NCBI RefSeq assembly: GCF_001404515.1
Contig: NZ_CXWE01000001.1
Coordinates: forward strand, 372,001 to 436,000
Source: Roseibium album
Lineage (GTDB): Bacteria > Pseudomonadota > Alphaproteobacteria > Rhizobiales > Stappiaceae
DNA length: 64,000 nucleotides
Direction of reading: 5' to 3'
The notes under the pieces were generated by a model. The model was not told the DNA's origin, did not search any database, and was given only the letters and a program-made list of their open reading frames with translations. The position numbers and the translations under genes were made by a program. Every line of letters begins with the position of its first letter. Within the stretch, counting starts at the first letter, position 1. Positions 5,309 through 63,709 of the stretch are shown in pieces.

Positions 5309-6796
5309 CTAACTGGCGTTGCTGATCGTGATCGACTTTACCTTGGTATAGGCATCGAGTCCTTCCCAGCCTTTTTCGCGTCCATAGCCGGATTTCTTGT
5401 TGCCGCCGAATGGCAGTTCCAATCCGCCGGCCCAGTAGTCGTTGATCGATACCTGGCCGCAGTCCATGGCCGAGGCGACCCGCATTGCCCGGCTGACATC
5501 CTGGGTATAAACGCTCGCGATCAGGCCGAATTCCGTGCCGTTGGCCAGTTGTATGGCCTCGTCTTCGGTGTCGAAGTTCTGAACCGAGAGCACCGGCCCG
5601 AATATCTCTTCCTGTACTGCCGGGTCATCAGGTTCAAGGTCGGCAATTACGGTCGGCTGGAAGAACCAGCCCTTGCCGGTGTCGGCGTCGACCGTCACGT
5701 CGCCGCCGGTCAGAAGGTGGGCGCCGCGGCCTTTCGCTGCTTCGACATGCGCCTTGATCCGCGACAGGTGCAGCTCCGAGTTGATCGCACCCATATCCGG
5801 TGCGGTCAGTCCGTGTGCGGTCCTGATCGACTTTGCCCGCTCACCAAGAATGGCAAGAACATCGTCGCGGATCGCCTTGTGCATGATGAGCCTGGACCCG
5901 GCAGAGCAGATCTGACCGGAATTGGAGAAGATCGCCCAGTAGGCTCCGTCCGCCACTTTTTCAGGGTCTGCATCACTGAAGGCGATCAGGGGAGACTTGC
6001 CGCCAAGTTCCAGGGTCAGCCGCGTGACGTTGGGGGCTGCCATCTGGGCAACATTGATGCCTGTCGAAACGGACCCTGTGAACGTCAGTTGCTTGATCCG
6101 CGGGTCACGTGCCATCCGGGCACCGATATCCGCGCCAAGGCCGGTGACGACATTGACCAGCCCCGCCGGCACACCTGCCTCGCAGAGCAGTTCTGCCATC
6201 ACGAGGGCGGTGAAGGGTGTTGTCTCCGCTGGCTTTGCAACAACCGAACATCCTGCGGCAAGCGCAGGTGCGACACCGCGCGCAAAGGTCGATGTTGGAT
6301 AGTTCCAGGGAATGATATGCCCGGTAACCCCGACCGGTTCGCGCACGGTAAAGGCTGTGTAGGCTGGCCCGAGATTGACGGACCGCCCGTCAAGCTTGTC
6401 GGCGGCGCCTGCGTAATATTCGAACAGCCGCGCGGAGGATTGAATGTCGCCCTGTGCTTCCGCCAGGGTCTTGCCGCTGTCGACCACTTCGATCACTGAA
6501 AGCCGGTCGGCATTCTCTCGAAACAGGCGGGCGACATTGTTCAGGATCCTGCAACGCTCGCCCGGCGTCACCTGCCGCCAGTGCCGTGCGGCTGTTTCGG
6601 CTGACGCAATGGCAAGATCCATGTCGGTCTCTTCACCGAGGGAGAATTCCGCGAAGGCCTCCGCCCGTCCCGGATCGAAGCTTTCCATTTTCCGGTTCGA
6701 TGGCTGCGTGGTCTTGCCGTCAATGAAGTGGCCATCGGGCAGGGCTGCAAGCCTGCCGGTCTTCAGATAATCTTGTGCGATGTCATGAGCTGTCAT
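5309..6796 (-). CDS. NAD(P)-dependent aldehyde dehydrogenase
   Basis: A 495-residue ALDH superfamily enzyme of standard length. Visible landmarks are the cofactor region IIPWNYPTS (about 161-169) and VVAKPAE (185-191), LTFTGSVSTG (237-246), the general base in LELGGKSP (Glu263) and the nucleophile in NSGQICSAGSR (Cys297). It oxidises an aldehyde to a carboxylic acid in the cytoplasm. Its ATG overlaps the stop of the GMC gene by four bases (ATGA), so the two are translationally coupled. A simple reading is that the GMC enzyme makes an aldehyde from an alcohol, this enzyme makes the acid, and the enolase-superfamily enzyme processes the acid. The actual aldehyde is unknown; betaine aldehyde dehydrogenase-like activity is an alternative given the choline dehydrogenase-like partner. 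Confidence 0.92.
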   Translation of the reverse strand: MTAHDIAQDYLKTGRLAALPDGHFIDGKTTQPSNRKMESFDPGRAEAFAEFSLGEETDMDLAIASAETAARHWRQVTPGERCRILNNVARLFRENADRLSVIEVVDSGKTLAEAQGDIQSSARLFEYYAGAADKLDGRSVNLGPAYTAFTVREPVGVTGHIIPWNYPTSTFARGVAPALAAGCSVVAKPAETTPFTALVMAELLCEAGVPAGLVNVVTGLGADIGARMARDPRIKQLTFTGSVSTGINVAQMAAPNVTRLTLELGGKSPLIAFSDADPEKVADGAYWAIFSNSGQICSAGSRLIMHKAIRDDVLAILGERAKSIRTAHGLTAPDMGAINSELHLSRIKAHVEAAKGRGAHLLTGGDVTVDADTGKGWFFQPTVIADLEPDDPAVQEEIFGPVLSVQNFDTEDEAIQLANGTEFGLIASVYTQDVSRAMRVASAMDCGQVSINDYWAGGLELPFGGNKKSGYGREKGWEGLDAYTKVKSITISNAS

Positions 6797-8409
6797 TGCG
6801 TGGCTCGTTTCCGGTCTTGAAGGATGAGGTCAGCCCCTTTCAGGGCAAGCATCATGGTTGGGGCATTGGTATTGCCCGAGGTAATATTTGGAAAGGCAGA
6901 GGCGTCGACAACTCTCAGGCCGTCAACTCCGTGAACCTTGAGACGGCTGTCGATCACCGATGTTTCTGCATTTTTACCCATCCGGCAGGTCGAGACCGGA
7001 TGATAGACGGTGCTGGCACGGTCGCGGAAATCGGCCAGAATTCCTTTGCCGTCGAGCGTTTCCAGATGAGGTGCGACGGATGCGTCCACAACAGAGCGCA
7101 TGGCCTGGCTCGACATGATTTTCTGGCAAAGCCGGCCGCCGGCAATGACCGCTTCGCGATCTTCTTCCGTTGCAAGCGAATTCGGCTGGATCAAGGGAGC
7201 AACAGTACTGTCCACGCTTTTGATATCGATGCGTCCCCGGCTGGTTGGCCGGGTCGGTTGCGCACAGATGATGAAGCCGTTGAAGGGATCCAGGGTCAGC
7301 TTTGCCGTGTTGCCGTTCGGGAGCAGCCGATAGCTGATGGGATTGAAGTAAAGCTGTTGATCTGGATGTTCCAACCCGGATTGCGATTTCAGGAACCCGC
7401 CGCACTGGTTCACAGACAGCGCAAGAGGGCCCTTTCGTGTAACCGCATATTGCAGGGCGGCACGTGCCCGGCCCGCCAGGGGGCGCAACACGGCATTGAG
7501 CGTTGCTTCTTTGGCCCGAAACGTGAAGTTGGCGGCAAGGTGATCCTGTAGGTTTCCGCCGACATTGGGGTTGGCAACAAGCACGGGAACTCCAAGATCC
7601 TGCAACAGGTTACCCGGACCTATCCCGGATACTTGCAACAGCTGGGGTGAGCCGATGGCGCCGGCTGAAAGGATGAGCTCCCGATCGGCACGAAGCACTT
7701 CACCGCTCGTCAGCTCGATGCCGACAGCCGTGTTGCCCTCAAAGAGGACCCGTTTGGCCTGTGTTTCCGTAAGCAGTTCGAGATTCGGGCGGGACAGGGC
7801 CGGATGCAAGAAGGCGCGTGCGGACGAACAGCGCTTCCCGTCTTTCGTATTGATGTGGTAGTTGCCACCGCCTTCGGGCGCTGCGCCGTTGAAATCGTCC
7901 GACCGTGGCAGGTCTGCCTCGTCGAGTGCCGAAAAGAAATGGCGATTAAGTCTGTGTATCTGTTTCGACGTGTCCTGGACGTGGATCCAGCCGCATCCCA
8001 TTTTTCTGCCGCTGGGCGACACTTTCGTTTCCAGGCGTTCGAATACAGGTTTGACGTCCCGCCAACCCCAGCCTTCTGCTCCGGATGCCTCCCAGTCTTC
8101 AAAATCTCTTGGAAGGCCGCGGCAATAAACCATGGCATTGACAGAACCCGATCCCCCCAGCATGCGGCCCCTCGGCCAGGAAATACTGCGTCCATTCAGG
8201 CCCGTGTCCGGCTCCGTCTTGAATTGCCAGGTGCACTTTGGATCTGAGACAAGCTTGGCATATCCCAGAGGCAATCGTACCCAGGGTGAATTGTCGGCGC
8301 TCCCGGCTTCCAGCAAAAGCACGGTGGAGTGCGGGTCGGCACTCAGGCGCTCCGCAAGGATGCATCCGGCAGACCCGGCTCCGACGATGATGTAATCGGC
8401 TCTTTGCAT
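6793..8409 (-). CDS. GMC-family FAD oxidoreductase (choline/alcohol dehydrogenase-like)
   Basis: A 538-residue GMC flavoprotein. The dinucleotide motif ADYIIVGAGSAGCILAERLS starts at residue 4, SWPRGRMLGGSGSVNAMVYCRG is the first GMC signature region, and ILSAGAIGSPQLLQVSGIGP is the second. The C-terminal active-site region shows YHPVSTCRMG and NITSGNTNAPTMM, which supply the expected His and Asn. I chose ATG 8409 because the FAD motif then lies at the usual distance from the N-terminus; a TTG at 8463 would add 18 residues. It is the first gene of the three-gene catabolic operon and is divergent from a LysR gene. It oxidises a primary alcohol, most likely with a membrane electron acceptor or oxygen. 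Choline is one candidate but no other betaine genes are nearby. Confidence 0.92.
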   Translation of the reverse strand: MQRADYIIVGAGSAGCILAERLSADPHSTVLLLEAGSADNSPWVRLPLGYAKLVSDPKCTWQFKTEPDTGLNGRSISWPRGRMLGGSGSVNAMVYCRGLPRDFEDWEASGAEGWGWRDVKPVFERLETKVSPSGRKMGCGWIHVQDTSKQIHRLNRHFFSALDEADLPRSDDFNGAAPEGGGNYHINTKDGKRCSSARAFLHPALSRPNLELLTETQAKRVLFEGNTAVGIELTSGEVLRADRELILSAGAIGSPQLLQVSGIGPGNLLQDLGVPVLVANPNVGGNLQDHLAANFTFRAKEATLNAVLRPLAGRARAALQYAVTRKGPLALSVNQCGGFLKSQSGLEHPDQQLYFNPISYRLLPNGNTAKLTLDPFNGFIICAQPTRPTSRGRIDIKSVDSTVAPLIQPNSLATEEDREAVIAGGRLCQKIMSSQAMRSVVDASVAPHLETLDGKGILADFRDRASTVYHPVSTCRMGKNAETSVIDSRLKVHGVDGLRVVDASAFPNITSGNTNAPTMMLALKGADLILQDRKRATQ

Positions 8410-8572
8410 TGGTGACACCGGCTGTCGTGTTGTGTCTGCCGCGAAGTTTCCACGAGATTGCAAAATCCATGAAACGAAAAAATATTTGGAGAAGCATTGA
8501 AAAATTTTGTAGGAAGAACCTGTTTCCGAATACGAAATGTCGGGTGTTGCAAAAAACGCTGAGCCTAGAGAT

Positions 8573-9466
8573 ATGGTCTATAGCCTCCCACCCCTGTCAT
8601 GGCTTCGTGCGTTCGAAGCTTCGGCTCGCCTTGGCAACTTTACCCGGGCGGCAGAAGAACTGTTGATTACACCGGCAGCGGTCAGTTACCAGGTGCGTCA
8701 GCTGGAGCAGAAGCTTGGCTATCCGCTCTTTGAAAGGGTTCACCGTGAACTCGTCCTCACAAGACTGGGCCAAACCTATTTGCCCAGTGTCGAAAAGGCG
8801 TTCTCGGACCTTTCCATCGCCACGGTCTCGGTTTTCGGCGAACGGGATCGCAAGCCGGTCCGTTTCCGCTGTCTGAACAGTTTCAGCCAGCTCTGGATGA
8901 TTCCGCGTTTGAAGTCGTTCCAGCAGGCTTTTCCGGAAATTGAACTGCAGATGATGTCGGCGTCTTGGGCCGAAACGCTGAACCCGGATCTCTTTGACAT
9001 TGATATCCGCTTTGGTGACGGCAGCTGGCGGGACGGAGCTGTTGAGTTCCTGTTGAACGATCCGATCGTCCCCGTTTGTCATCCCCAATTCTCGTTTGAC
9101 GTCAGGGAGAGGGATCTTGATACGCTGGCGCATGCCTCGCGGCTCGACATCATGGGCGTGATAGACACCTGGGAGAGCTTCTTCAGGGCTTTCGGGCATC
9201 CTGCGCCACGACGGACCGGGCTTCAGGTGGACCAGACGCTGTCTGCATTGGAACTGGCCGCTCTCGGCCATGGCCATGCTCTCGTGCTTGAAACGCTCGC
9301 GCAGCCCTACCTGGAAACCGGGCGGCTGGTTCTTTCCTGTGACAGGAAAATCAAGAGCCGCCACAGCTACTATCTGGTCACCTCCGGTCCGCGGCAGGGT
9401 CTGGGGTCAGACGCTCAGATTTTTTGCAGCTGGTTGATCGGTGAACTGGGAGCCAAGGATCTGTGA
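8573..9466 (+). CDS. LysR-family transcriptional regulator (GcvA-like)
   Basis: A regulator of about 297 residues. It begins SLPPLSWLRAFEASARLGNF and continues with TRAAEELLITPAAVSYQVRQ, the GcvA-type LysR winged helix. The rest is a periplasmic-binding-like effector domain, with RFRCLNSFSQLWMIPRL at its start and LELAALGHGHALV later. The start is uncertain: ATG 8573 gives the usual short GcvA N-terminus, while ATG 8537 adds 12 residues; neither has a strong ribosome site. It is divergent from the GMC-ALDH-enolase operon and is the obvious candidate activator. It ends eight bases before the end of the convergent cti gene. Confidence 0.92.
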   Translation: MVYSLPPLSWLRAFEASARLGNFTRAAEELLITPAAVSYQVRQLEQKLGYPLFERVHRELVLTRLGQTYLPSVEKAFSDLSIATVSVFGERDRKPVRFRCLNSFSQLWMIPRLKSFQQAFPEIELQMMSASWAETLNPDLFDIDIRFGDGSWRDGAVEFLLNDPIVPVCHPQFSFDVRERDLDTLAHASRLDIMGVIDTWESFFRAFGHPAPRRTGLQVDQTLSALELAALGHGHALVLETLAQPYLETGRLVLSCDRKIKSRHSYYLVTSGPRQGLGSDAQIFCSWLIGELGAKDL

Positions 9467-9473
9467 CCGTTCA

Positions 9474-11861
9474 TCAATCGACCGAAAAGGTGAATTGAAA
9501 CAGCCTTTCGATGGGATCCAGGGGTTTGGGGTCGCGGTATCGGTTGATGTCAAGAAGTCCGGCCTGGACAGCACTCTGCTCGTTGAGGCGGGACTGGACA
9601 AGATCGTAGGTTTGCCAGAACCGGGGATCGGTTCTGCGCACACCATATGTCTCTACCACCTTCAGATAGTCCTGTTGGCTGCGGATGGACCTGACATCCT
9701 CAACAAAGGCGGGGACGTCTTTTGCATCCATTCTGAATGCGAAATTCGGGTAGCTGCTGAACTGGCCCGGCACGATTGTAAGTTCGTCCTCTTCCGGTTC
9801 CCGCCGCAGATCTTCGTTGAAGATAAATGCAACATTGCTGTGGGCCATATCGTGCGCAATCGTGAAAATGTCCTCCGTCTGCCCGTCCTCGATAATGAGT
9901 ATTGAAATGTCGGGCAGGAATTTCACGAATGGAGCAGGATGTCCGCTCAGCGGACGCAACTGACCGGCGACAGTGGTCTGCTGCGCACAATTATTGCCGT
10001 CGCAACGGTTGATAGGGTCGCTCGCTGGCCAGAGATCGGGTTCAGTCTTGAGCAGTTCAGACAGGAATTCGGACTTGGGATGGTCCGTTTTGAAGTCAAC
10101 ACCTGTTGGTGTCTCGGTATCGAGAGGACTTTCCTTCCATTGATCGATCAGTGTGGCGAGTGGTCCTTCGTACCAGCTGTCATGGAGTGGTTCCCTGACG
10201 TCGGGTGGCATGAAATACAGGAACATCCTTTCACCCTCGCGGCGAAGATTGTCCATGTACATCCGGGTCGTCAGCTGGTGCTCCACATTCCCGAAAACAT
10301 CAAAGCCTGCGACGAGATCGTAGTAGACCCTTTCAAACAGGGGAAAGTCGATTACCCAGGCAGTTTTCGGAAAGGCTCCCTGATACCCGGTGACCACCGA
10401 GGCGGAGGAAAAATTCCGGTAAATCGTCAGCCGTGCATCGATGTTGGTTCCATCGCCATCCCAGATATCAGAATACCCGAGGCCGCCGTCTGTCCTGGCT
10501 TTCTCGGCATAGCGCTTTTGCCGGAAGGCCTGATACTTGACGGGCCCAACCAGGAGAAAACTCTTGAGGCGCTCTGTTATCTTGTCGTCCGAAACGGCGA
10601 CCGGAAGTTCGAGGATCGGAATCGCGTCTTGAAGGTAGGTCGGATCGGTGACCGACAGATCTGAAGCGGGGTCCAGGAACGATATCCAGAATCGATCCTG
10701 GATAACATTGACCGCAACCTGCCCGTAGCAGACGGGACCTCGAATGAAGGTGCGCACGAAAAACAGCGCATCGTCCAACAGGAACTGGTACCGGCTGTGT
10801 GGCGGAAGTGCCTTAAAGGTGGAAAGGGGGTTCCCGCCAGCCTCCTTGGAGTAGGACGGAAGCTCGTCAATCGTCCAGTCGTTCGAAAGGAACAGGTCCT
10901 CGAAGCGGCGCAGCCGGTTCTGACCGATCTCGTAGACAATATGTTCCTTGTGGAGAATTGTGCCATCGATCGGAACCAGCCGATAGAAGAAGCGACCTCC
11001 GGGATCATCGAACGGACGGCGGGAGGGGATTTCATCCGGTTCGGAGCCTGGTGCCGAGCTGGATCTGATGAGGCGGAAGAAACGCCGTGGACTGTCACCT
11101 TCAATGTAGAGATGCGCCAGAAAGAGATGTTCGAAAATGTAGCGGGCAACAAGTTTCGATTTGAGCGTCTCCCTGTTGAAGAAAGCCTCAACCCTGCGGA
11201 CTTCGTCTGCAATGTTCTGGGGAATGACCGTTGCGCTCGTATCCGCGGGGGCACCATCGGATGCCCAGGCGAGAAGACGACGATAGTCCTCGTCGGGAAG
11301 CGGAGCGGTTCCGAAGGGCATGCCGGCGAAAGGGTGATCAGCCAAAAAACCGCTGATTTCAGACGGTGTCGGGCAGCTGTTCTTTCTCAGCGGGCTGATG
11401 TCGAGGCTGTCGGGCAGGGCAGCGCCCGGTTTGAAATCCTGGCTGCGTCCGGCCTTCAGGAGCTGCTCGAGCATGGACTGGTGCCCGCTGCCGCCGTTGA
11501 CCGAAAAAAATCCTTTTTCACGCCATTGGGGAACCGTCCTCGCATCAATGCCGAGCCGCGTCATCGGCGCATCTTCAAGGCGCGAGGAATCGTACACCCT
11601 CGCCTTCGTGGCGCCGCGTTGCCATCCGTCTGCCGATGAAAGTTTCAACTGGCAGGGCGCATCATAGCAGCCATGGCAGACAACACAGCGTTTGTTGAGA
11701 ACATCCTGGATCGTCGAATGGGATGAAGCTTCCTTCGTGTCACTCGCCGAAGCAGAATCGATGACAGCAAAGATCAGGGGCAGCAGCAGAAGACAGAGCA
11801 TGCCATGGATCTTTCCAAGACTGGCAACCTGCCGAATTAGTGAAAGAATCCTGCGCCGCAT
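9474..11861 (-). CDS. cti: Fatty acid cis/trans isomerase Cti
   Basis: A 795-residue protein, the usual length for Cti, which converts cis unsaturated phospholipid acyl chains to trans and so stiffens the membrane under solvent or heat stress. A hydrophobic export segment at about 20-38 is followed by a single c-type heme site, CVVCH (Cys59, Cys62, His63), in the context KRCVVCHGCYDAPCQLKLSS; both are hallmarks of Cti and place it in the periplasm. The later segments HKEHIVYEIG and THMYMD-like regions fit the family. The start is ATG 11861 with GGGGGAT upstream. It lies seven bases after a small membrane protein gene and is probably co-transcribed with it. Its 3-prime end nearly meets the convergent LysR gene. 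Confidence 0.93.
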   Translation of the reverse strand: MRRRILSLIRQVASLGKIHGMLCLLLLPLIFAVIDSASASDTKEASSHSTIQDVLNKRCVVCHGCYDAPCQLKLSSADGWQRGATKARVYDSSRLEDAPMTRLGIDARTVPQWREKGFFSVNGGSGHQSMLEQLLKAGRSQDFKPGAALPDSLDISPLRKNSCPTPSEISGFLADHPFAGMPFGTAPLPDEDYRRLLAWASDGAPADTSATVIPQNIADEVRRVEAFFNRETLKSKLVARYIFEHLFLAHLYIEGDSPRRFFRLIRSSSAPGSEPDEIPSRRPFDDPGGRFFYRLVPIDGTILHKEHIVYEIGQNRLRRFEDLFLSNDWTIDELPSYSKEAGGNPLSTFKALPPHSRYQFLLDDALFFVRTFIRGPVCYGQVAVNVIQDRFWISFLDPASDLSVTDPTYLQDAIPILELPVAVSDDKITERLKSFLLVGPVKYQAFRQKRYAEKARTDGGLGYSDIWDGDGTNIDARLTIYRNFSSASVVTGYQGAFPKTAWVIDFPLFERVYYDLVAGFDVFGNVEHQLTTRMYMDNLRREGERMFLYFMPPDVREPLHDSWYEGPLATLIDQWKESPLDTETPTGVDFKTDHPKSEFLSELLKTEPDLWPASDPINRCDGNNCAQQTTVAGQLRPLSGHPAPFVKFLPDISILIIEDGQTEDIFTIAHDMAHSNVAFIFNEDLRREPEEDELTIVPGQFSSYPNFAFRMDAKDVPAFVEDVRSIRSQQDYLKVVETYGVRRTDPRFWQTYDLVQSRLNEQSAVQAGLLDINRYRDPKPLDPIERLFQFTFSVD

Positions 11862-54892: not shown

Positions 54893-55038
54893 GGTGATGT
54901 GATCTGTCGCAGCTTCAAATGAGGGAATGCGGACTATACTTTCAGGAATGAAGAACTAGATGATGTCCATGTTGTTTGCCTTATCGTTCCTTGCTGGATG
55001 TTACAAGCGGCTTCGGGACCTTCCGGAAGAGAGACGGC

Positions 55039-55920
55039 ATGTTTGAACAGTTCGACATCAACCAGCTGCGCATGGCCTGTTTTGGCGGAATTTTTCTGGT
55101 CATGGCCCTGTTGGAAGCGGGACTGCCCAGGCGCCAGATGGAAAACGGCCGGCTCAAACGCTGGCCTACCAACTGGGGCCTTATCCTCCTCGATTCCATT
55201 CTTGTGCGCCTGATTTTTCCAATTGGAGGGGTTGGACTGGCGCTTCTGGCGCAGGAAAATGGCTGGGGTCTCTTCGGCTTGCTGGGTTGGACCGGTCTTC
55301 TCGCCGGGATTGTCACGTTCCTGGTTCTGGACCTCGCCGTCTGGGCCCAGCACGTGGCCTCGCACAAGGTTCCGCTGTTCTGGCGCATTCACCGCGTCCA
55401 TCATGCGGACAGCGAAGTCGATGCCACAACCGCGCTCAGGTTCCATCCGATCGAGATCCTTCTTTCCTTCGTTTGGAAGGGCCTCGTGATTGTCGCCCTT
55501 GGCGGACCTGTCGAAGCTGTTCTGGCCTTTGAAATCGTGCTGAACGCGTCCGCGGTTTTCGGGCATGCGAATATCCGGATTCCGAAAGGCTTCGATTGGC
55601 TGCTGCGCCTTTTGATCGTGACACCGGACATGCACCGGATCCACCATTCCGTGATACGACGGGAAACCGATTCAAACTACGGTTTCTATCTCTCCATCTG
55701 GGACAGGCTCTTCGGAACATATGTCGAGGAACCCGAAAAAGGACACCAGGCAATGGAAATCGGCCTCGGACCGTCTTTGACGCCCAACGCTCACAAGCTG
55801 CCATTCAGTCTTGTCATTCCGTTTCTTGAAAACAGGCGGATCAAGGAAGATGAGGGCGACAAGGCCGAAAGTGCGGACAAGGCATCAGTAAAAACTGAAG
55901 GGAAAATAACGCAGGTATAA
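55039..55920 (+). CDS. Sterol desaturase/fatty acid hydroxylase family protein
   Basis: A 293-residue integral membrane di-iron enzyme. Four hydrophobic segments are visible, and the histidine clusters are HVASHK, HRVHHAD and HRIHHS, with a fourth HP in ALRFHPIEI. It probably hydroxylates a membrane lipid. ATG 55039 with GGAAGAGA upstream gives a normal N-terminus. The last 60 residues are charged and lie in the cytoplasm. Its 3-prime end overlaps the convergent binding-protein gene by 36 bases. Confidence 0.88.
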   Translation: MFEQFDINQLRMACFGGIFLVMALLEAGLPRRQMENGRLKRWPTNWGLILLDSILVRLIFPIGGVGLALLAQENGWGLFGLLGWTGLLAGIVTFLVLDLAVWAQHVASHKVPLFWRIHRVHHADSEVDATTALRFHPIEILLSFVWKGLVIVALGGPVEAVLAFEIVLNASAVFGHANIRIPKGFDWLLRLLIVTPDMHRIHHSVIRRETDSNYGFYLSIWDRLFGTYVEEPEKGHQAMEIGLGPSLTPNAHKLPFSLVIPFLENRRIKEDEGDKAESADKASVKTEGKITQV

Positions 55921-57233: not shown

Positions 57234-57376
57234 TTTTCTTGCTCGCGGTTCTGTTCCTCACTGCGTGAGTTTAGAGGGAGTTGGCTGGACACGAGTGTGA
57301 AAAAAGTGTGAAGCGGTTGGATAGAGGCTATAACTGCTGTTCTATAGAATACGTATTTTTCTCGAGGCGATGGGGC

Positions 57377-59017
57377 ATGCGCGCAAAGTTATTGGAAATC
57401 AGTTTGTTCGGTTCCTGTATCGTCCGCTCGCTTGAGCCCGGGGCGTTCGAGATCACAGGCAAGAAGCACCGTGCAATCTTCGCGTTGCTTGCAACGGCGC
57501 CTCATGGCTGCAGAAGCCGGACTTTCCTGCAGGAAACCCTTTGGGGAGCCTCCTGTTATGATACGGGCAGGCAAAGCCTGCGGCGCGCCTTGTCAGACAT
57601 CAAGTCTGCAATGGGGCCATATTACAGTCAGCTCATCAACACCAACAATTCTGAAGTCACACTTGATTTGAGCAACGTCGTCTTCGCGGGTCAACCCGGA
57701 CAGGGGACGTTCCTGGAAGGCCTTGACGTGCCTGCGCCCCTGTTTGAGGAGTGGCGTGATTCGGTCAGAGCCAACCCTGAACAGATCCATGCGCTGTTCC
57801 GCGCGCCAACCTCCGCGTTGCCAAGACCGCCTGTGCCGACGGTAACGGTGATGCCGTTGCTCAGCATTGAAAGCAATCCCGAGCTGACGATACTGGGAGA
57901 CTGGTTTGCCGAAGAGATTTGCCGTTCGCTTTCCAGAACGAACCTCCTGGCGGTCATATCGCATTTTTCCAGTCGCTCACTTGCCGGACGCCGGATCGAT
58001 ATCGAGGTCATCCGTTCCAAGCTGAAAGTTGATTATTGCGTGGCAGGAAGCATCCGGCAGATCAACGACGAAGTTATTACAGATGTCGATTTTCTGGACG
58101 CCGAGACCGGGCGCATTTTGTGGACCCGGCAGTTCAGCGGAAAGCTGAATGACTTTATAAGTGACGCCGGTCAGGGCCTGACCAACATCGTGACATCCGT
58201 CGGCAATGCCATTGCTTCCGACACGCTGCGCTATGTTCGCGGTCGGCCGATCAGCGAAATCGCCGACCACAAGCTTCTGATGGCAAGCGTAAGCCTGATG
58301 CATCGTTCGACCCTGCGTGATTTCGCGAAATCACGCGAATTGCTTGATGAGGCCCTGAGGCGATCGCCACGGTCGGCGGAGGTGCATGCCTGGCGCGGCA
58401 AATGGCACGTCCTGAGTGTCATCAACGGTTGGAGTTCAGATCCGGCGAAAGACACGAAGAGTGCCGTTGGCAGTACTACCAAGGCGCTTGATATCGATCC
58501 GGAAAACGCGTTCTGCATGACAATCGACGGTTTTGCGCACAACAACTTGCTGCGACGGTTGGATGTGGCATCCAACCGCTACGAAATTGCACTTGACCAG
58601 AATCCGAATGAGGCACTCTCGTGGCTTTTGCGCGGAGCGCTCTACGCGTTTCAGGATTCAGGTGAACAAGCGGTTCATGCGGTCGACAAGGCCCGCAAGT
58701 TATCGCCCATTGATCCCTTCAGGTATTTTTACGATTGCCTGAGCGCGACAGCTTACCTGGCGGCAGAAGATTACGAAAAGGCGTTGCAGTTCGCCAACAG
58801 TTCGTTGGAGCGTAACCAACGACACCTTTCAACGTTGCGTGCAAAGATTATTGCACTTCATTTCCTGGATCGAACTGCGGAAGCAAAGGAAATTGCAGAT
58901 GAATTACGGCGCAGGCAGCCGACATTTTCGGTTGAGGGCTACATGAACGCACACCCGGCGGCCGACTATCAGGTTGGCCAAAATGCAATGCGCGCCCTGC
59001 GGGCGGTTGGTTTTTAG
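57377..59017 (+). CDS. SARP-like winged-helix regulator with TolB-like and TPR domains
   Basis: A 546-residue protein. Residues 1-100 resemble the SARP DNA-binding domain (ISLFGSCIVRSLEPGAFEIT, GKKHRAIFALLAT, LQETLWG and RQSLRRALSDIKSAMG). Residues 153-290 match the TolB-like region of adenylate cyclase-type regulators (TVTVMPLLSIESNPELTILG, YCVAGSIRQINDEVITDVDF, GRILWTRQFSGKLNDF). The remainder is a TPR-like helical array (LLDEALRRSPRSAEVHAWRG, ALDIDPENAF, ALSWLLRGALYAF). There is no catalytic cyclase domain. It opens a co-directional set with the PAP2 and subtilase genes (23- and 17-base gaps) and probably regulates them. ATG 57377 is preceded by GAGG. Confidence 0.85.
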   Translation: MRAKLLEISLFGSCIVRSLEPGAFEITGKKHRAIFALLATAPHGCRSRTFLQETLWGASCYDTGRQSLRRALSDIKSAMGPYYSQLINTNNSEVTLDLSNVVFAGQPGQGTFLEGLDVPAPLFEEWRDSVRANPEQIHALFRAPTSALPRPPVPTVTVMPLLSIESNPELTILGDWFAEEICRSLSRTNLLAVISHFSSRSLAGRRIDIEVIRSKLKVDYCVAGSIRQINDEVITDVDFLDAETGRILWTRQFSGKLNDFISDAGQGLTNIVTSVGNAIASDTLRYVRGRPISEIADHKLLMASVSLMHRSTLRDFAKSRELLDEALRRSPRSAEVHAWRGKWHVLSVINGWSSDPAKDTKSAVGSTTKALDIDPENAFCMTIDGFAHNNLLRRLDVASNRYEIALDQNPNEALSWLLRGALYAFQDSGEQAVHAVDKARKLSPIDPFRYFYDCLSATAYLAAEDYEKALQFANSSLERNQRHLSTLRAKIIALHFLDRTAEAKEIADELRRRQPTFSVEGYMNAHPAADYQVGQNAMRALRAVGF

Positions 59018-59040
59018 ACGAGTAATTGAAGGGGGTAATC

Positions 59041-60156
59041 ATGGCCTATTTCGGTGGAATTGGCGGTATCGGTGGAATTGGTGGCATAGGTGGCATTGGA
59101 GGTATCGGTGGCATTGGCGGCATCGGGAACCTGAATGCAACCGGTCTCGGCAGCTTTCTTGGAGGCAGTGGAGCGCTTGACCCTCTGACGATTCAAGGTC
59201 TGCAAACCAGTGCCCAGGCGATAAGTCATGCAGCCGGGGATGGAACCACTCATCCATCCAGGGAAATGAATTTTTCGTCGAGCGAAAACCTCGACAAATG
59301 GGCGGACTGGGTCCGGGCATCCCTTTATTTAAGCGATTTCATGAGCGAACTTTCCTGGGAAGCGAAACAAGGCCCCACCGATGAAGTGACGCTGTCCTAT
59401 CGCTCTCACGGCGGAGGTGCACTGCAGCCGTTCTTCTCCGTGGTCCGCCCCGATGGTGAACTGTTCGACAAACAGCTGGACCTTGTTCGTTCCTATATGG
59501 ACCAGCGCCCTGAACGCACTGCGGAAATTACGTCGCAACTCGGGTTCCCGACCCCTTATTTCGCAATGATAATCGGTCTCATCCCCGGCAGGAACAACAA
59601 GACCCTTGAACTGATCACCCTGACACAGGTTCTGGCAGCGCATGTTGCGATGATCGTGAAGCATCATCTGGCAATTCGGCGCCCTGACCGAATTGGAGTA
59701 TCGATCCTGCCAATGATCCCGACACCGGGTCATGGCAGCTTTCCGAGCGCGCATGCGACCGAGGCCTTCGCGGTCGTGCGTATGCTCGAGGGACTGATTG
59801 ATGCGTCGGGGTCTCATTATCCCGATGGTGACAAGCGCAAGAACCTGCTGCGCAAACAGGCCGAACGCATTGCCGTCAGCCGGACGGTTGCCGGAGTTCA
59901 TTACCCTGTCGACAGCTGGGCCGGTGCGTTGCTGGGCAAGATGGTTGGCGAGATGGTGTTGAACAAGTGTGGCGTGCAGACCGAAATGCGAGGGCTGAAA
60001 TACGAAGCCCGCGCGGAGTCGGACTTCATGATCTCGCAATATCAGCCGACCAAATGGGGCGCTCACGGTGTCTCCGAACTGGAGCTTTGCACTGTCGACA
60101 AGAGTGACCAGTTTGAATGGCTCTGGAAGAGTGCGGTCGATGAGTTTGACCTCTAG
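59041..60156 (+). CDS. PAP2/vanadium haloperoxidase-family protein with N-terminal Gly-Gly-Ile repeat
   Basis: A 371-residue protein. After MAYF come eight GGI repeats (residues 5-28), then a soluble helical domain and a PAP2 core. The three PAP2 motifs are complete in spacing: KX6RP (Lys207, Arg214, Pro215 in KHHLAIRRP), PSAH in GSFPSAHATEAFA (235-238, Ala replacing the usual Gly) and SRX5HX3D in SRTVAGVHYPVD (280-291). The absence of clear membrane helices fits soluble vanadium haloperoxidases or acid phosphatases rather than lipid phosphatases. There is no signal peptide. GAAGGGGG precedes the ATG. The repeat is unusual and probably structural. Confidence 0.87.
   Translation: MAYFGGIGGIGGIGGIGGIGGIGGIGGIGNLNATGLGSFLGGSGALDPLTIQGLQTSAQAISHAAGDGTTHPSREMNFSSSENLDKWADWVRASLYLSDFMSELSWEAKQGPTDEVTLSYRSHGGGALQPFFSVVRPDGELFDKQLDLVRSYMDQRPERTAEITSQLGFPTPYFAMIIGLIPGRNNKTLELITLTQVLAAHVAMIVKHHLAIRRPDRIGVSILPMIPTPGHGSFPSAHATEAFAVVRMLEGLIDASGSHYPDGDKRKNLLRKQAERIAVSRTVAGVHYPVDSWAGALLGKMVGEMVLNKCGVQTEMRGLKYEARAESDFMISQYQPTKWGAHGVSELELCTVDKSDQFEWLWKSAVDEFDL
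59053..59124 (+). repeat. Nine-base tandem repeat encoding (Gly-Gly-Ile)8
   Basis: Eight in-phase units of nine bases, each GGN-GGN-ATH, run from 59053 to 59124. Units vary only at third positions; GGTGGAATT and GGTGGCATT each occur twice. The synonymous variation shows selection on the protein sequence, while the near-identity would still allow length changes by slippage. Confidence 0.95.
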
Positions 60157-60173
60157 GAAAGGGCGAACCGAGC

Positions 60174-62318
60174 ATGACCGATACAAGCACAAATGACGGT
60201 GGTCTCGCAGACGCCGTCGCGATCAAGAACTATCTTGGCCCCTACGAAGCCTGGAATTTTGGTCTCGGCAAGGCCTACGCTTTTCCAGCTTATCGCGGTG
60301 ACGACGTTCGTTTTTTATCGGCATTGGCGGAACATCCAGAACCGCAAAGGCCGCATTCTCTTCTTGATAGTGTGGCGAGCGATGGTCACGGAATGTGGCT
60401 TCCGACCGTCTGGGGCAAGGAGGACGACGTTGCCCTGCGCTTCTGGCCGATCGTTGTTGAAAACCGTTCAGATGACGGCATTGCACCAGACAGCTTGGCC
60501 CTGAACCTCACGGAAGCGATGCCGTCGGACCCGATTGGAGAGGCACGCTTTCGCATGGCCTTTCCTGTTGAAGAGGAAGCGATGCACCGCCACGCCAGGC
60601 GAATGACGGCTGATCCGGACTGGAAACCGGATACAGGCGTCGGGACCGGTGATGGACCCAAAAGGACGATTAATGTGTTGGGGGTGATCGACGACGGCAT
60701 CCCGTTTGCTCACCGGAATTTCCGTGCTGCCGATGGCAAGAGAACCAGACTGGAATTCTGCTGGTTGCAATCGGCACACAAGAAAGAGGGGCAAGACCAT
60801 CCAAGTGTGCTGTTTGGCCGGGAGTTCACCCGAGAAACCATTGAACAGCTTATCGCGAAGCACCCGGAGGATGAGGATGCGCTTTATGCAGAGGCAGGAG
60901 CTTCCGACCAGCAGTTCGGTTCGGGGGCGGCCATCAACCGGCTTGCAACCCATGGCTCGAATGTCATGGATATTGCTGCTGGCTCAAATCCGGACAAGGG
61001 ACACGCCCCACCGGAAGAAACCCGTCTGATCGCCGTGCAGCTTCCCAACACCTATGGTTGGGACACGTCCAGTTTCGGCAAGGACATGTATATGCTGTCC
61101 GCCGTGCATTACATCCTTGAACGCGCAGAACGGATTGCTGAAGGTTACGGGGTCAAGGATATTCGCGTAACCATCAATATCAGTTACGGATTCTCGGCCG
61201 GTCGCCATGACGGGGAGGGAGAACTGGAAGCTGCGATGGATGAGATCGTCGCAAAGCGGCGCCAGTTGGGCAGACCGACCGCGATCGTCATACCATCCGG
61301 AAACACTTTCCAGGATCGGCTGCACGGGGAAATCACATCCGGTCACCTGGGGTCGGGGTCTTTTGAATTCAGCTGGAAAACCCAACCGAACGACCTGTCG
61401 TCAAACTACCTCGAAATATGGTTTCCCGATCAGCTGGATCCCGGTGACTTTGATCTTGAAGTCAAGGGTCCGTTTGGCAAAATCAGCGCTGAAATGGCGT
61501 TGAAACCCGATCCGTCATACCAGCATGGCGACCCGCGAAACTTCAAGTCAATTCAGCTCGATCCACCTCATCAAGGCGACGCCATCGGGCAGATCAGTCT
61601 CGACAATCACAGGAAGTCCGGTCGCTGGCGTGTCCTGATCGCGCTTGCGCCCAGTGAACCGCATGACCCTGCCTTGCCGGCAGCCCCTGCGGGTGAATGG
61701 AAGATTGTCCTGAGCCGCGGAGATGTGGCCCCCAGGGATCACGAACCGATCTATCTCTGGGTGCAACGCGATATCGATCTGGAGCCCTTTTTGACCGGTT
61801 CCCGTCAGAGCTATCTTCACGATGATGACTATCGCCTCGTAAGCGAAAAGGGTGCTGAAGAAGAGAGCGATCAACCAGACAGCAATGTGAAACGTTTCGG
61901 CAGCCTGAACGGGATGGCAACCGGCGCGACCACTTTGGTCGTTGCAGGATCGCGACCAGTGATCGGATCCCGTTTCGAAAGGGGTGAGTTGACGGCATCG
62001 ACCTTCAGCTCCGCCGGAAAAACCGCCTCCGGTCCAGCGGTCGGCGGCGTCGATTGCACGGCACGGGCTGACCGGTCGAACATAGTTCCCGGCATCGTCG
62101 GGGCAGGAACCCGCAGTGGTTCCTATTCTTCTGTTCAGGGTACAAGCGTTGCCGCGCCGCTGGTTGCAAGGCGACTTTCGGAAGCATTTGCCAGATGTTC
62201 GGACCAGGAGATCAAGAGCGCGGAAAAAGACAATTACCTTCCGATCGTGCAATCGATTGCATTATCGGATCAAAGTGTCGAGGGTCGTGCGCGATTAGGT
62301 GAATTTCTGGTTATTTGA
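60174..62318 (+). CDS. Subtilisin-like S8 serine protease without signal peptide
   Basis: A 714-residue protein. The catalytic set is in the subtilase order: Asp173 in NVLGVIDDGIPFAH, His260 in LATHGSNVMDIAAG, the oxyanion Asn377 in VIPSGNTF and Ser658 in VQGTSVAAPLVARR. About 165 residues precede the Asp and are not a typical I9 propeptide. Between Asn and Ser lies an insertion of some 200 residues (about 395-600) that looks like beta-rich domains (SGSFEFSWKTQPNDLSSNYL, SGRWRVLIALAPSEP). No signal peptide or membrane segment is visible, so it is intracellular or exported by another route. It starts 17 bases after the PAP2 gene and ends at a terminator. Confidence 0.9.
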   Translation: MTDTSTNDGGLADAVAIKNYLGPYEAWNFGLGKAYAFPAYRGDDVRFLSALAEHPEPQRPHSLLDSVASDGHGMWLPTVWGKEDDVALRFWPIVVENRSDDGIAPDSLALNLTEAMPSDPIGEARFRMAFPVEEEAMHRHARRMTADPDWKPDTGVGTGDGPKRTINVLGVIDDGIPFAHRNFRAADGKRTRLEFCWLQSAHKKEGQDHPSVLFGREFTRETIEQLIAKHPEDEDALYAEAGASDQQFGSGAAINRLATHGSNVMDIAAGSNPDKGHAPPEETRLIAVQLPNTYGWDTSSFGKDMYMLSAVHYILERAERIAEGYGVKDIRVTINISYGFSAGRHDGEGELEAAMDEIVAKRRQLGRPTAIVIPSGNTFQDRLHGEITSGHLGSGSFEFSWKTQPNDLSSNYLEIWFPDQLDPGDFDLEVKGPFGKISAEMALKPDPSYQHGDPRNFKSIQLDPPHQGDAIGQISLDNHRKSGRWRVLIALAPSEPHDPALPAAPAGEWKIVLSRGDVAPRDHEPIYLWVQRDIDLEPFLTGSRQSYLHDDDYRLVSEKGAEEESDQPDSNVKRFGSLNGMATGATTLVVAGSRPVIGSRFERGELTASTFSSAGKTASGPAVGGVDCTARADRSNIVPGIVGAGTRSGSYSSVQGTSVAAPLVARRLSEAFARCSDQEIKSAEKDNYLPIVQSIALSDQSVEGRARLGEFLVI

Positions 62319-62343
62319 ATTAGTAAAAGTTGAAAATTTACTC

Positions 62344-62370
62344 AAAAGCCCGGTTTCAGCCGGGCTTTTT
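62344..62370 (+). terminator. Terminator after the subtilase gene
   Basis: The stem AAGCCCGG (62346-62353) and CCGGGCTT (62360-62367) has a six-base loop and continues into TTTTT. It ends the SARP-PAP2-S8 operon and separates it from the SGNH gene. Confidence 0.9.
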
Positions 62371-62674
62371 CATTTGTTCGGAACTTAATTCACGCTTTTC
62401 TCACGCGCGTGAGCGCAATGAATATTGTAACTAATAGCCTCAAGAGCAGAGCAACAGCACAGACGCGTTCCGGAGACGGAAACAAGTGCGACAGAAGTAT
62501 CCCTCGAAAGGTGGTTCCGTGAAGAGGGAAGATTGAGCGTCCGGCTTTGAAACGGATATTTGCGGGCCACGATGCACCGGGAAACGGTTGCCACGAGGCC
62601 CGACGCGAGGAAGACAGCCCCATCGACTGCCTGCTTCCTCAAACAACGTATCGACGAAAGCTTTGGAGGTAATC
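62371..62674. other. Intergenic region upstream of the SGNH-like gene
   Basis: About 300 bases with no supported gene. A perfect 14-base palindrome, CTCACGCGCGTGAG, lies at 62400-62413. The region should contain the promoter of the following gene; TTGGAGGT at its end is that gene's ribosome site. Confidence 0.5.
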
Positions 62675-63574
62675 ATGTACGCCGACATCCTGGAAGCGAC
62701 AGTCTTGAACAACACGCGATATGAGAAGGATCCCAACAGATGCCTTGCCTATCACGTTCTGGATGACAATCGTGTTCCACTTACTCAAGAGCAGGTTGCT
62801 GTTGAGTGGTCAGCGTCAGGCAAGGGAGAAGATGCGCACCCGATCAGGATTCGCCGGTCGCCGATCCGCATCTGCGCAAGTGGTGACTCCTGGATCAACG
62901 TTGTGATCGAAGTGTCACGGTATCTTGGCTACAACAAGACCTTCTTCGACATCCTCGAATGTTACTACCAGACAGCAAGCTCTGCCTGGCCGGGATACAC
63001 CTTCGACGACCTGATCGAGCAAAAGCCTTTCCGCGTTCACGTGGATACCGGTGTCTATGATTATTTCGTGTTTTCAGGCGGCGGCAACGAGCTGCTGGGC
63101 GGCTGCGCTCTTTCCAGGCTGCTGAAGGACAGAAGCGCTGTATTGGGGTCCGATCGTGCGGAAGACTATCTGCACATGGATCGACTGGAAGCGGTTCTGG
63201 AGAAGTTGAAAAAGGGATATGTCGAGATTGCCGAACACGTCCTGAAACAGGCGCCGCGCACGCAGTTGCTTGTCCAGGGATACGACTATCCGGTCGCACA
63301 CAGCGACGGGCCATGGTTCGGTCGTCCCTTCGCAAAGCGCAATTTCCGCTTCGAAGCTGACAAGGAACTGATCAACGCGATCCTGACTTATCTCGTCGAC
63401 CGTTTCTACGGCTTCCTTCACGATGTCGATTCTCAGTTTCCGAACGTGACCGTGGTTGATATCCGGAACATGGTTCGCGGTCGCTGGACGGACGAATTTC
63501 ACCCCGAAGTCGAGGCATCAAAGGATATTGCCGGTTACTATCGAAACGTGATTGACGGGTATCATTTTGTGTAA
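62675..63574 (+). CDS. SGNH/GDSL-like hydrolase
   Basis: A 299-residue protein with the blocks of SGNH hydrolases in order. The nucleophile motif is RICASGDSWINVV (Gly70, Asp71, Ser72), the Asn block is FVFSGGGNELLGG (Asn138), and the Asp-x-x-His block is TDEFHPEVEAS (Asp273, His276). The family cleaves esters or acyl groups. There is no signal peptide and the 60 residues before the Ser are extra. ATG 62675 has TTGGAGGT upstream. It lies after the subtilase operon in the same direction, with its own promoter region. Its link with that operon is inferred only from position. Confidence 0.82.
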   Translation: MYADILEATVLNNTRYEKDPNRCLAYHVLDDNRVPLTQEQVAVEWSASGKGEDAHPIRIRRSPIRICASGDSWINVVIEVSRYLGYNKTFFDILECYYQTASSAWPGYTFDDLIEQKPFRVHVDTGVYDYFVFSGGGNELLGGCALSRLLKDRSAVLGSDRAEDYLHMDRLEAVLEKLKKGYVEIAEHVLKQAPRTQLLVQGYDYPVAHSDGPWFGRPFAKRNFRFEADKELINAILTYLVDRFYGFLHDVDSQFPNVTVVDIRNMVRGRWTDEFHPEVEASKDIAGYYRNVIDGYHFV

Positions 63575-63678
63575 GTTTTCAGTTTTGCGGGCAACCGCAC
63601 CAGATCTTTTGCCGACGGTCCGAAAGGACCTGAAGCGCTAGGCATTTAATCTGAAATTTGTTTTTAATCGTGTTCGGT

Positions 63679-63709
63679 GGCGGGGCTTGTCCCCGCCGCT
63701 TATTTTTTT
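63679..63709 (+). terminator. Terminator after the SGNH-like gene
   Basis: The stem GGCGGGG (63679-63685) and CCCCGCC (63691-63697) has a CTTGT loop and is followed by GCTTATTTTTTT. It lies between two convergent genes. Confidence 0.88.

Follow-up and report, generated by a model that had tools for sequence, protein, structure and literature searches.

Why should an enzyme carry a tail of identical units when the unit itself hardly matters? This question is raised by a locus of Roseibium album in the window, i.e. the whole stretch of 64,000 nucleotides analysed here. The locus comprises four genes, all on the + strand: the regulator gene REG, a PAP2 gene, an S8 protease gene and an SGNH-like gene (Table 1). 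The reading favoured here, to which a probability of roughly 40% is assigned, is that of an intracellular PAP2 enzyme that is regulated and bears a repeat tail; this tail would serve as a self-matching element of assembly or control and would be policed by the partner protease.

Table 1. Genes and sequence elements of the R. album locus (window coordinates).
Feature	Position	Strand	Remarks
Predicted operator upstream of REG, TGTGAAAAAAGTGTGAA	57296..57312	+	GTGA direct repeat, 11-bp spacing; 1 mismatch to CGTGARAAAAGYGTGAA
REG	57377..59017	+	546 aa; TPR by Pfam; N-terminal winged-helix-type domain predicted; TolB/FlgO-like middle predicted from homologues
PAP2/vanadium-haloperoxidase superfamily enzyme	59041..60156	+	371 aa; PF01569, E 1.3e-7; gap to REG 23
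(GGI)8 array, PAP2 N-terminus	59053..59124	+	8 perfect units, 6 DNA versions
S8 subtilase	60174..62318	+	714 aa; PF00082; gap to PAP2 17; without evident signal peptide
Terminator-like stem-loop 3' of S8	62344..62369	+	Stem scan
Predicted operator upstream of SGNH gene, CGTGAGAAAAGCGTGAA	62389..62405	-	0 mismatches to pattern
SGNH-like protein	62675..63574	+	299 aa; GDSW, GGGNE and DEFHP motifs; distant relatives match Lipase_GDSL_2
Terminator-like stem-loop 3' of SGNH gene	63676..63700	+	Stem scan

A first-pass annotation had described a gene set in one direction with two short gaps and a stem-loop behind S8, and the open reading frames (ORFs) are found just there. Its single terminator stands in part: a stem does follow S8, but the SGNH gene has a terminator-like stem of its own. 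Since the stem scan of the window found 14 stems where 10.2 were expected, a lone stem is weak evidence for a terminator. The start of the SGNH gene was corrected; the ATG listed in Table 1 is the likely one and is preceded by GGAGG. The REG start is supported because the conserved operator upstream of it falls within a longer ORF with a TTG start. In agreement with the earlier description of enzymes lacking a signal peptide, a simple hydropathy window revealed no strongly hydrophobic N-terminus in any of the four proteins. In the PAP2 protein, one 19-residue window reaches 1.67 (residues 188-206). The DNA of the cassette stretch has a single match in the whole own genome, which is itself. Fatty-acid-hydroxylase-type genes flank the cassette site on both sides (window 54976-55920 and L032:11546-12451). 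The product of the former is OlsE-like, albeit under the NCBI cut-off, and the product of the latter is 32% like it.

REG, PAP2 and S8 had been suggested to form an undescribed module, and a search for their homologues bears this out: the outcome named beforehand as refuting the idea, homologues scattered apart from each other, was not observed. S8 relatives are present in 25 of 101 genomes including the own one, and PAP2 and REG lie beside S8 in 20 of the 20 regions fetched around such relatives. Altogether 69 loci were scored (the window, 20 S8-neighbour regions, 8 plasmid loci and 40 further loci). The 66 in which PAP2 scores over 40 bits were counted; L165, L166 and L169, which had entered by weak S8 matches and are without PAP2, were left out. 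REG, the TPR regulator, is found near PAP2 in all 66. Because 32 of the 69 loci had been picked via S8 homologues (20 + 2 + 8 + 2 plasmids), the 36 picked by PAP2 and not by S8 yield the cleaner linkage figure: REG in 36/36 and a protease in 33/36. The gene set is conserved far more than chance would allow, and REG, PAP2 and the protease almost certainly constitute one functional unit. No description of such a cassette was encountered in the literature searched, which consisted mostly of titles and abstract openings, besides passages of PMC12419801.

The REG-PAP2-protease set is a conserved, mobile cassette across Pseudomonadota, found in Alpha- and Betaproteobacteria. At E 1e-10 or better, the PAP2 profile matches 17 of 385 genomes of the class and 24 of 398 genomes of the phylum, the two draws overlapping. 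At E 1e-5, 36 plasmid records contain PAP2 and 53 contain S8 relatives; conjugative Phaeobacter plasmids and a betaproteobacterium are among the carriers. Soil and plant-associated bacteria have cassettes, too. R. album itself possesses a second one, L057 on contig 5 (G000:C5:365000-384900, 5480-10748), whose REG is of the class III cyclase type and whose tail is (GSL)12; no GTGA operator was found near its REG. The SBP gene is present in 42 of 45 genomes of the genus and is adjoined by the cassette in 7. A profile search of the SBP neighbourhood in 20 other genomes, 19 of them with about 10 kb visible, detected neither a PAP2 nor an S8 homologue. The 20th locus, L211 (G028), is cut by a contig end and has a REG-like ORF (666-2234) beside SBP; if a cassette exists there, its other genes would be located beyond the contig end. 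A phage origin of the cassette is not supported: searches of phages and viral contigs gave no match for PAP2, and a comparison with PHROG yielded nothing beyond one weak match for REG (E 0.0033).

How is the cassette controlled? The window REG has no DNA-binding match in Pfam. Among its homologues, Pfam detects BTAD in 1 of 42 (L161) and Trans_reg_C in 6 of 42, FlgO occurs in some, and Guanylate_cyc is an alternative N-terminus. The winged helix of the window protein is therefore a prediction from these homologues and from the operator. Among the 66 cassettes, 40 have a winged-helix N-terminus, 25 a cyclase and 1 is untypable; typing is uncertain for L083, L133 and L134, the first of which is annotated as winged helix in its record. 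The predicted domain layout of REG is that of SARP/OmpR-like regulators containing TolB-like and TPR regions and of cyclase-TolB-TPR proteins. Unlike these, REG is tied to a repeat-tailed PAP2 and a protease, and its two N-terminal types swap within one cassette.

SARP regulators have a direct-repeat operator at one helical turn. The alignment of promoters from 11 close loci revealed CGTGAAAAAAGTGTGAA 5' of REG and the SGNH-side motif of Table 1, on the opposite strand, 5' of the SGNH gene. Each is located in the same place with 0-1 mismatches in 11 of 11 loci including the window. With at most 1 mismatch, the own 6.9-Mb genome contains the operator only at these two cassette sites; when two mismatches are allowed, one further site appears, and the reversed pattern used as a control gave 2 forward and 2 reverse sites. 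GTGA-N7-GTGA (at most 2 mismatches, between 250 bases before and 100 bases after the start of the REG ORF) is present near REG in 20 of 40 winged-helix cassettes versus 0 of 25 cyclase cassettes (Fisher 5e-6; base-shuffled controls 0/1320), with 11 of the 20 belonging to one clade that includes the window. In the other half of the winged-helix cassettes, e.g. L048-L050, no operator within 2 mismatches was found near REG. In the window alone, the pattern with 3 mismatches is not unusual (2 found, 0.67 expected), so that the weight of the operator derives from its conservation across loci and from the whole-genome search. REG is predicted to bind this GTGA direct repeat. Operator-like sites are also located 3' of S8 in two plasmid cassettes without an SGNH gene (L080:11381-11397 and L081:11229-11245, with 1 and 2 mismatches, respectively). 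A palindrome, CTCAC-N3/4-GTGAG, was found twice in the window (57257-57269 and 62400-62413) against 0.09 expected. It is present at both promoters in the window, L038, L039 and L046 and at the REG promoter alone in L040 and L041. Retained in a part of the clade only, it is possibly the site of a second regulator; of the two elements, the GTGA direct repeat is the more widespread.

The SGNH gene had been counted in with the module, and this is likely for one clade only. Of 101 genomes searched, 12 (the own one among them) encode an orthologue, with 64-100% identity. Every orthologue is located less than 2 kb from a cassette, and the operator is common to both; distant cassettes, on the other hand, are without SGNH, which rules out a universal fourth member. 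Cassette and SGNH gene are found together in at least three genomic settings. In G032, the adjacent cassette is a divergent allele, and in G042 the SGNH copy is broken. Since the operator recurs before it, the SGNH gene is likely a clade-specific regulon member. The window protein has no Pfam match and is assigned as SGNH-like by its motifs and by the Lipase_GDSL_2 matches of distant homologues. The window copy has the complete catalytic set of Ser, Asn and His. Ser is replaced by Ala in six copies (L039, L042, L043, L044, L047 and the broken L045), and the Asn of block III by Gly in L046 and by Asp in L039. Both residues are kept in 5 of 12 copies and at least one is changed in 7 of 12, so a catalytic role is not general. 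The altered orthologues (L039, L042-L047) are otherwise well conserved and possibly pseudoenzymes. A further SGNH (Lipase_GDSL_2) domain is part of an 835-aa protein that is encoded about 3 kb from a cassette in a different family of the order (L051:17017-19524).

The protease was correctly described as an S8 enzyme with a full triad. Peptidase_S8 exceeds the Pfam cut-off in the window protein, and H260, N377 and S658 are conserved in 55 of 55 homologues and D173 in 53 of 55, with Glu in L046 and L082. A protease is encoded near PAP2 in 63 of 66 loci. It is S8 in 58 of them, 55 by the own profile and three (L154, L159 and L160) by Pfam; in L154, the S8 gene adjoins REG. In the other five (L150-L153 and L155), an eqolisin-type Peptidase_A4 replaces S8. 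Peptidase_A4 (PF01828) is found in 3 of 240 genomes of the class, always beside a repeat-tailed PAP2, and in none of the 14 control genomes. Neither S8 nor A4 was detected among the ORFs scanned at the distant REG-PAP2 pairs L156, L158 and L161. In L156, PAP2 is followed by a Peptidase_M24 gene (9580-11016), which could either serve metabolism without any link to the cassette or encode yet another type of partner protease. The best profile relatives of S8 in NCBIfam and PDB are the Csp-type germination subtilases (CspB, CspBA), with which it shares a long segment separating the oxyanion Asn from the catalytic Ser; with 38 bits against 1250, it stays far below the curated NCBIfam cut-off for Csp. 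In contrast to the Csp-type enzymes, it is found in Pseudomonadota, is paired with PAP2 and has the full triad. Compared with their counterparts in L038, the four window genes have dN/dS values of 0.004 (REG), 0.065 (PAP2 body), 0.093 (S8) and 0.082 (SGNH).

The first-pass annotation had proposed a role in modifying a surface polymer, which the results neither favour nor contradict, or in competition or defence. An accessory, mobile cassette with interchangeable proteases and sensor domains, carried on conjugative plasmids and located beside SBP in 7 genomes but absent there from 19 of 20 others, could be an anti-phage or conflict system. REG would sense an intruder, and the released protease would activate PAP2 as a toxic effector acting on membrane lipids or nucleotides. 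Divergence fits this as well: S8 has diverged more than PAP2 and REG in the majority of the listed close pairs. However, PADLOC gave no convincing match (best IetS, E 0.043), PAP2 is without matches in phages or viral contigs, and on six plasmids the genes annotated nearby serve transport, metabolism or replication or are transposase or hypothetical genes. The sole hints are a SIR2-family gene (L085) and a gene with a VWA domain (L083). A conflict system is considered rather unlikely.

The assignment of the second gene to the PAP2/vanadium haloperoxidase superfamily is confirmed by a Pfam match over the cut-off and by its site residues. K207, R214, H238, R281, H287 and D291 show no variation among the 66 homologues, and the Ser of the PS[AG]H motif is kept in 64 of 66. 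The protein has the same complete site (K-x6-RP, PS[AG]H, R-x5-H-x3-D) as the soluble acid phosphatases and bromoperoxidases of the superfamily. It differs from these relatives in its uniform N-terminal repeat array and its constant neighbours REG and protease. With all vanadate/phosphate ligands kept and a profile likeness to vanadium bromoperoxidases (E 1e-9), the enzyme might halogenate signals or polymers by means of vanadate and peroxide, with the protease maturing it. Yet an acid phosphatase matches better (E 1.6e-11), the site residues are common to both activities, the hydropathy window showed no secretion signal, and the cassettes extend to soil and plant-associated bacteria. A haloperoxidase module is thus improbable.

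The (GGI)8 array, treated in the first-pass annotation as a detail, is one case of a general rule and the most unusual part of the locus. A uniform tandem array of at least 3 units is present in 65 of 66 PAP2 proteins; L163 has no array by this criterion and contains a short HGD stretch. Among the 65, the period is 3 in 59, 4 in three and 2 in three, and 35 different units occur. Nearly all arrays are N-terminal, the exceptions being L159-L161 (period 2 or 4); the array of L161 consists of 3 units only, identical in DNA. Outside PAP2, at least 5 perfect units were found in 15 of 7335 mechanical ORFs of the loci, of which 14 overlap the PAP2 gene and 1 is clear of it. Units can be swapped between close orthologues: L043 has (GGV)10 and L044 (GGI)9, with PAP2 bodies 92% identical. 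Paralogous cassettes with unlike units in one genome are uninformative, because the units of most pairs are unlike in any case. Among the units are hydrophobic (GGI, GGF) as well as charged ones (AGR, NAE, DAR), and we would not expect a single sorting receptor to read all of them. In spite of its N-terminal position in nearly all cases, the tail is quite improbable as a signal for targeting or secretion with repeats that arose by accident.

Within the arrays, codons have drifted to near randomness and the peptide has stayed uniform. For 639 pooled units, 44 of them imperfect, pS is 0.75, pN 0.077 and pN/pS 0.10. pN is lower than pS in 64 of 65 arrays and is 0 in 37; the window (GGI)8 itself has a pS of 0.75 and a pN of 0. 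Since synonymous sites are near saturation and amino acids hardly vary, the arrays are very probably selected for uniformity of the peptide, beyond slippage alone. That they are meaningless, neutral simple-sequence DNA kept uniform by slippage is extremely improbable and ruled out by codon saturation, for although the unit number varies and the array of the window, compared with L038 (about 97% alike), has matching ends and a reshuffled interior, slippage would have copied the codons, too.

For the regulated PAP2 enzyme with a self-matching tail, the following course of events is proposed. REG, a TPR sensor with a TolB-like middle and a winged-helix or class III cyclase N-terminus, would control the PAP2 enzyme, which is probably soluble, and the protease, which would be cytosolic. 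The winged-helix type would bind the observed GTGA-N7-GTGA sites, which lie at the REG promoter itself and, within this clade, also at that of the SGNH gene. The array would have to be uniform, with a nearly free choice of unit. Period 3 would suit an extended helix with three residues per turn, in which identical side chains form a ladder, and through such a self-matching tail the subunits might assemble or be kept inactive. The partner protease, S8 or A4, would most likely cut the tail or the assembled enzyme and thereby switch it on or off; cleavage of the tail itself is a tentative proposal. Pairwise distances gave no sign that S8 co-evolves with the unit (AUC for unit identity 0.85 for S8, 0.89 for the PAP2 body and 0.90 for REG). 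It is conceivable, if rather doubtful, that the array is a new protein element: a self-matching tag that insulates each PAP2 from the PAP2 of other cassettes. In such a sensor-protease-effector system, the tag would be read by a dedicated protease whose family can be exchanged.

Gasdermin-protease pairs and Craspase are protease-controlled effector systems of bacterial immunity. The cassette with its sensor, cytosolic protease and effector resembles them in logic. Bacterial amyloid signalling sequences are short N-terminal elements and, like the PAP2 array, could match themselves. In contrast to amyloid signalling, the REG and S8 genes of the scored loci contain no array of at least 5 units, and the PAP2 unit is freely replaced. 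The tail separates selection for periodicity or self-similarity from selection for sequence, and the exchange of the protease (S8, A4) and of the sensor (winged helix, cyclase) around a constant PAP2 provides natural controls.
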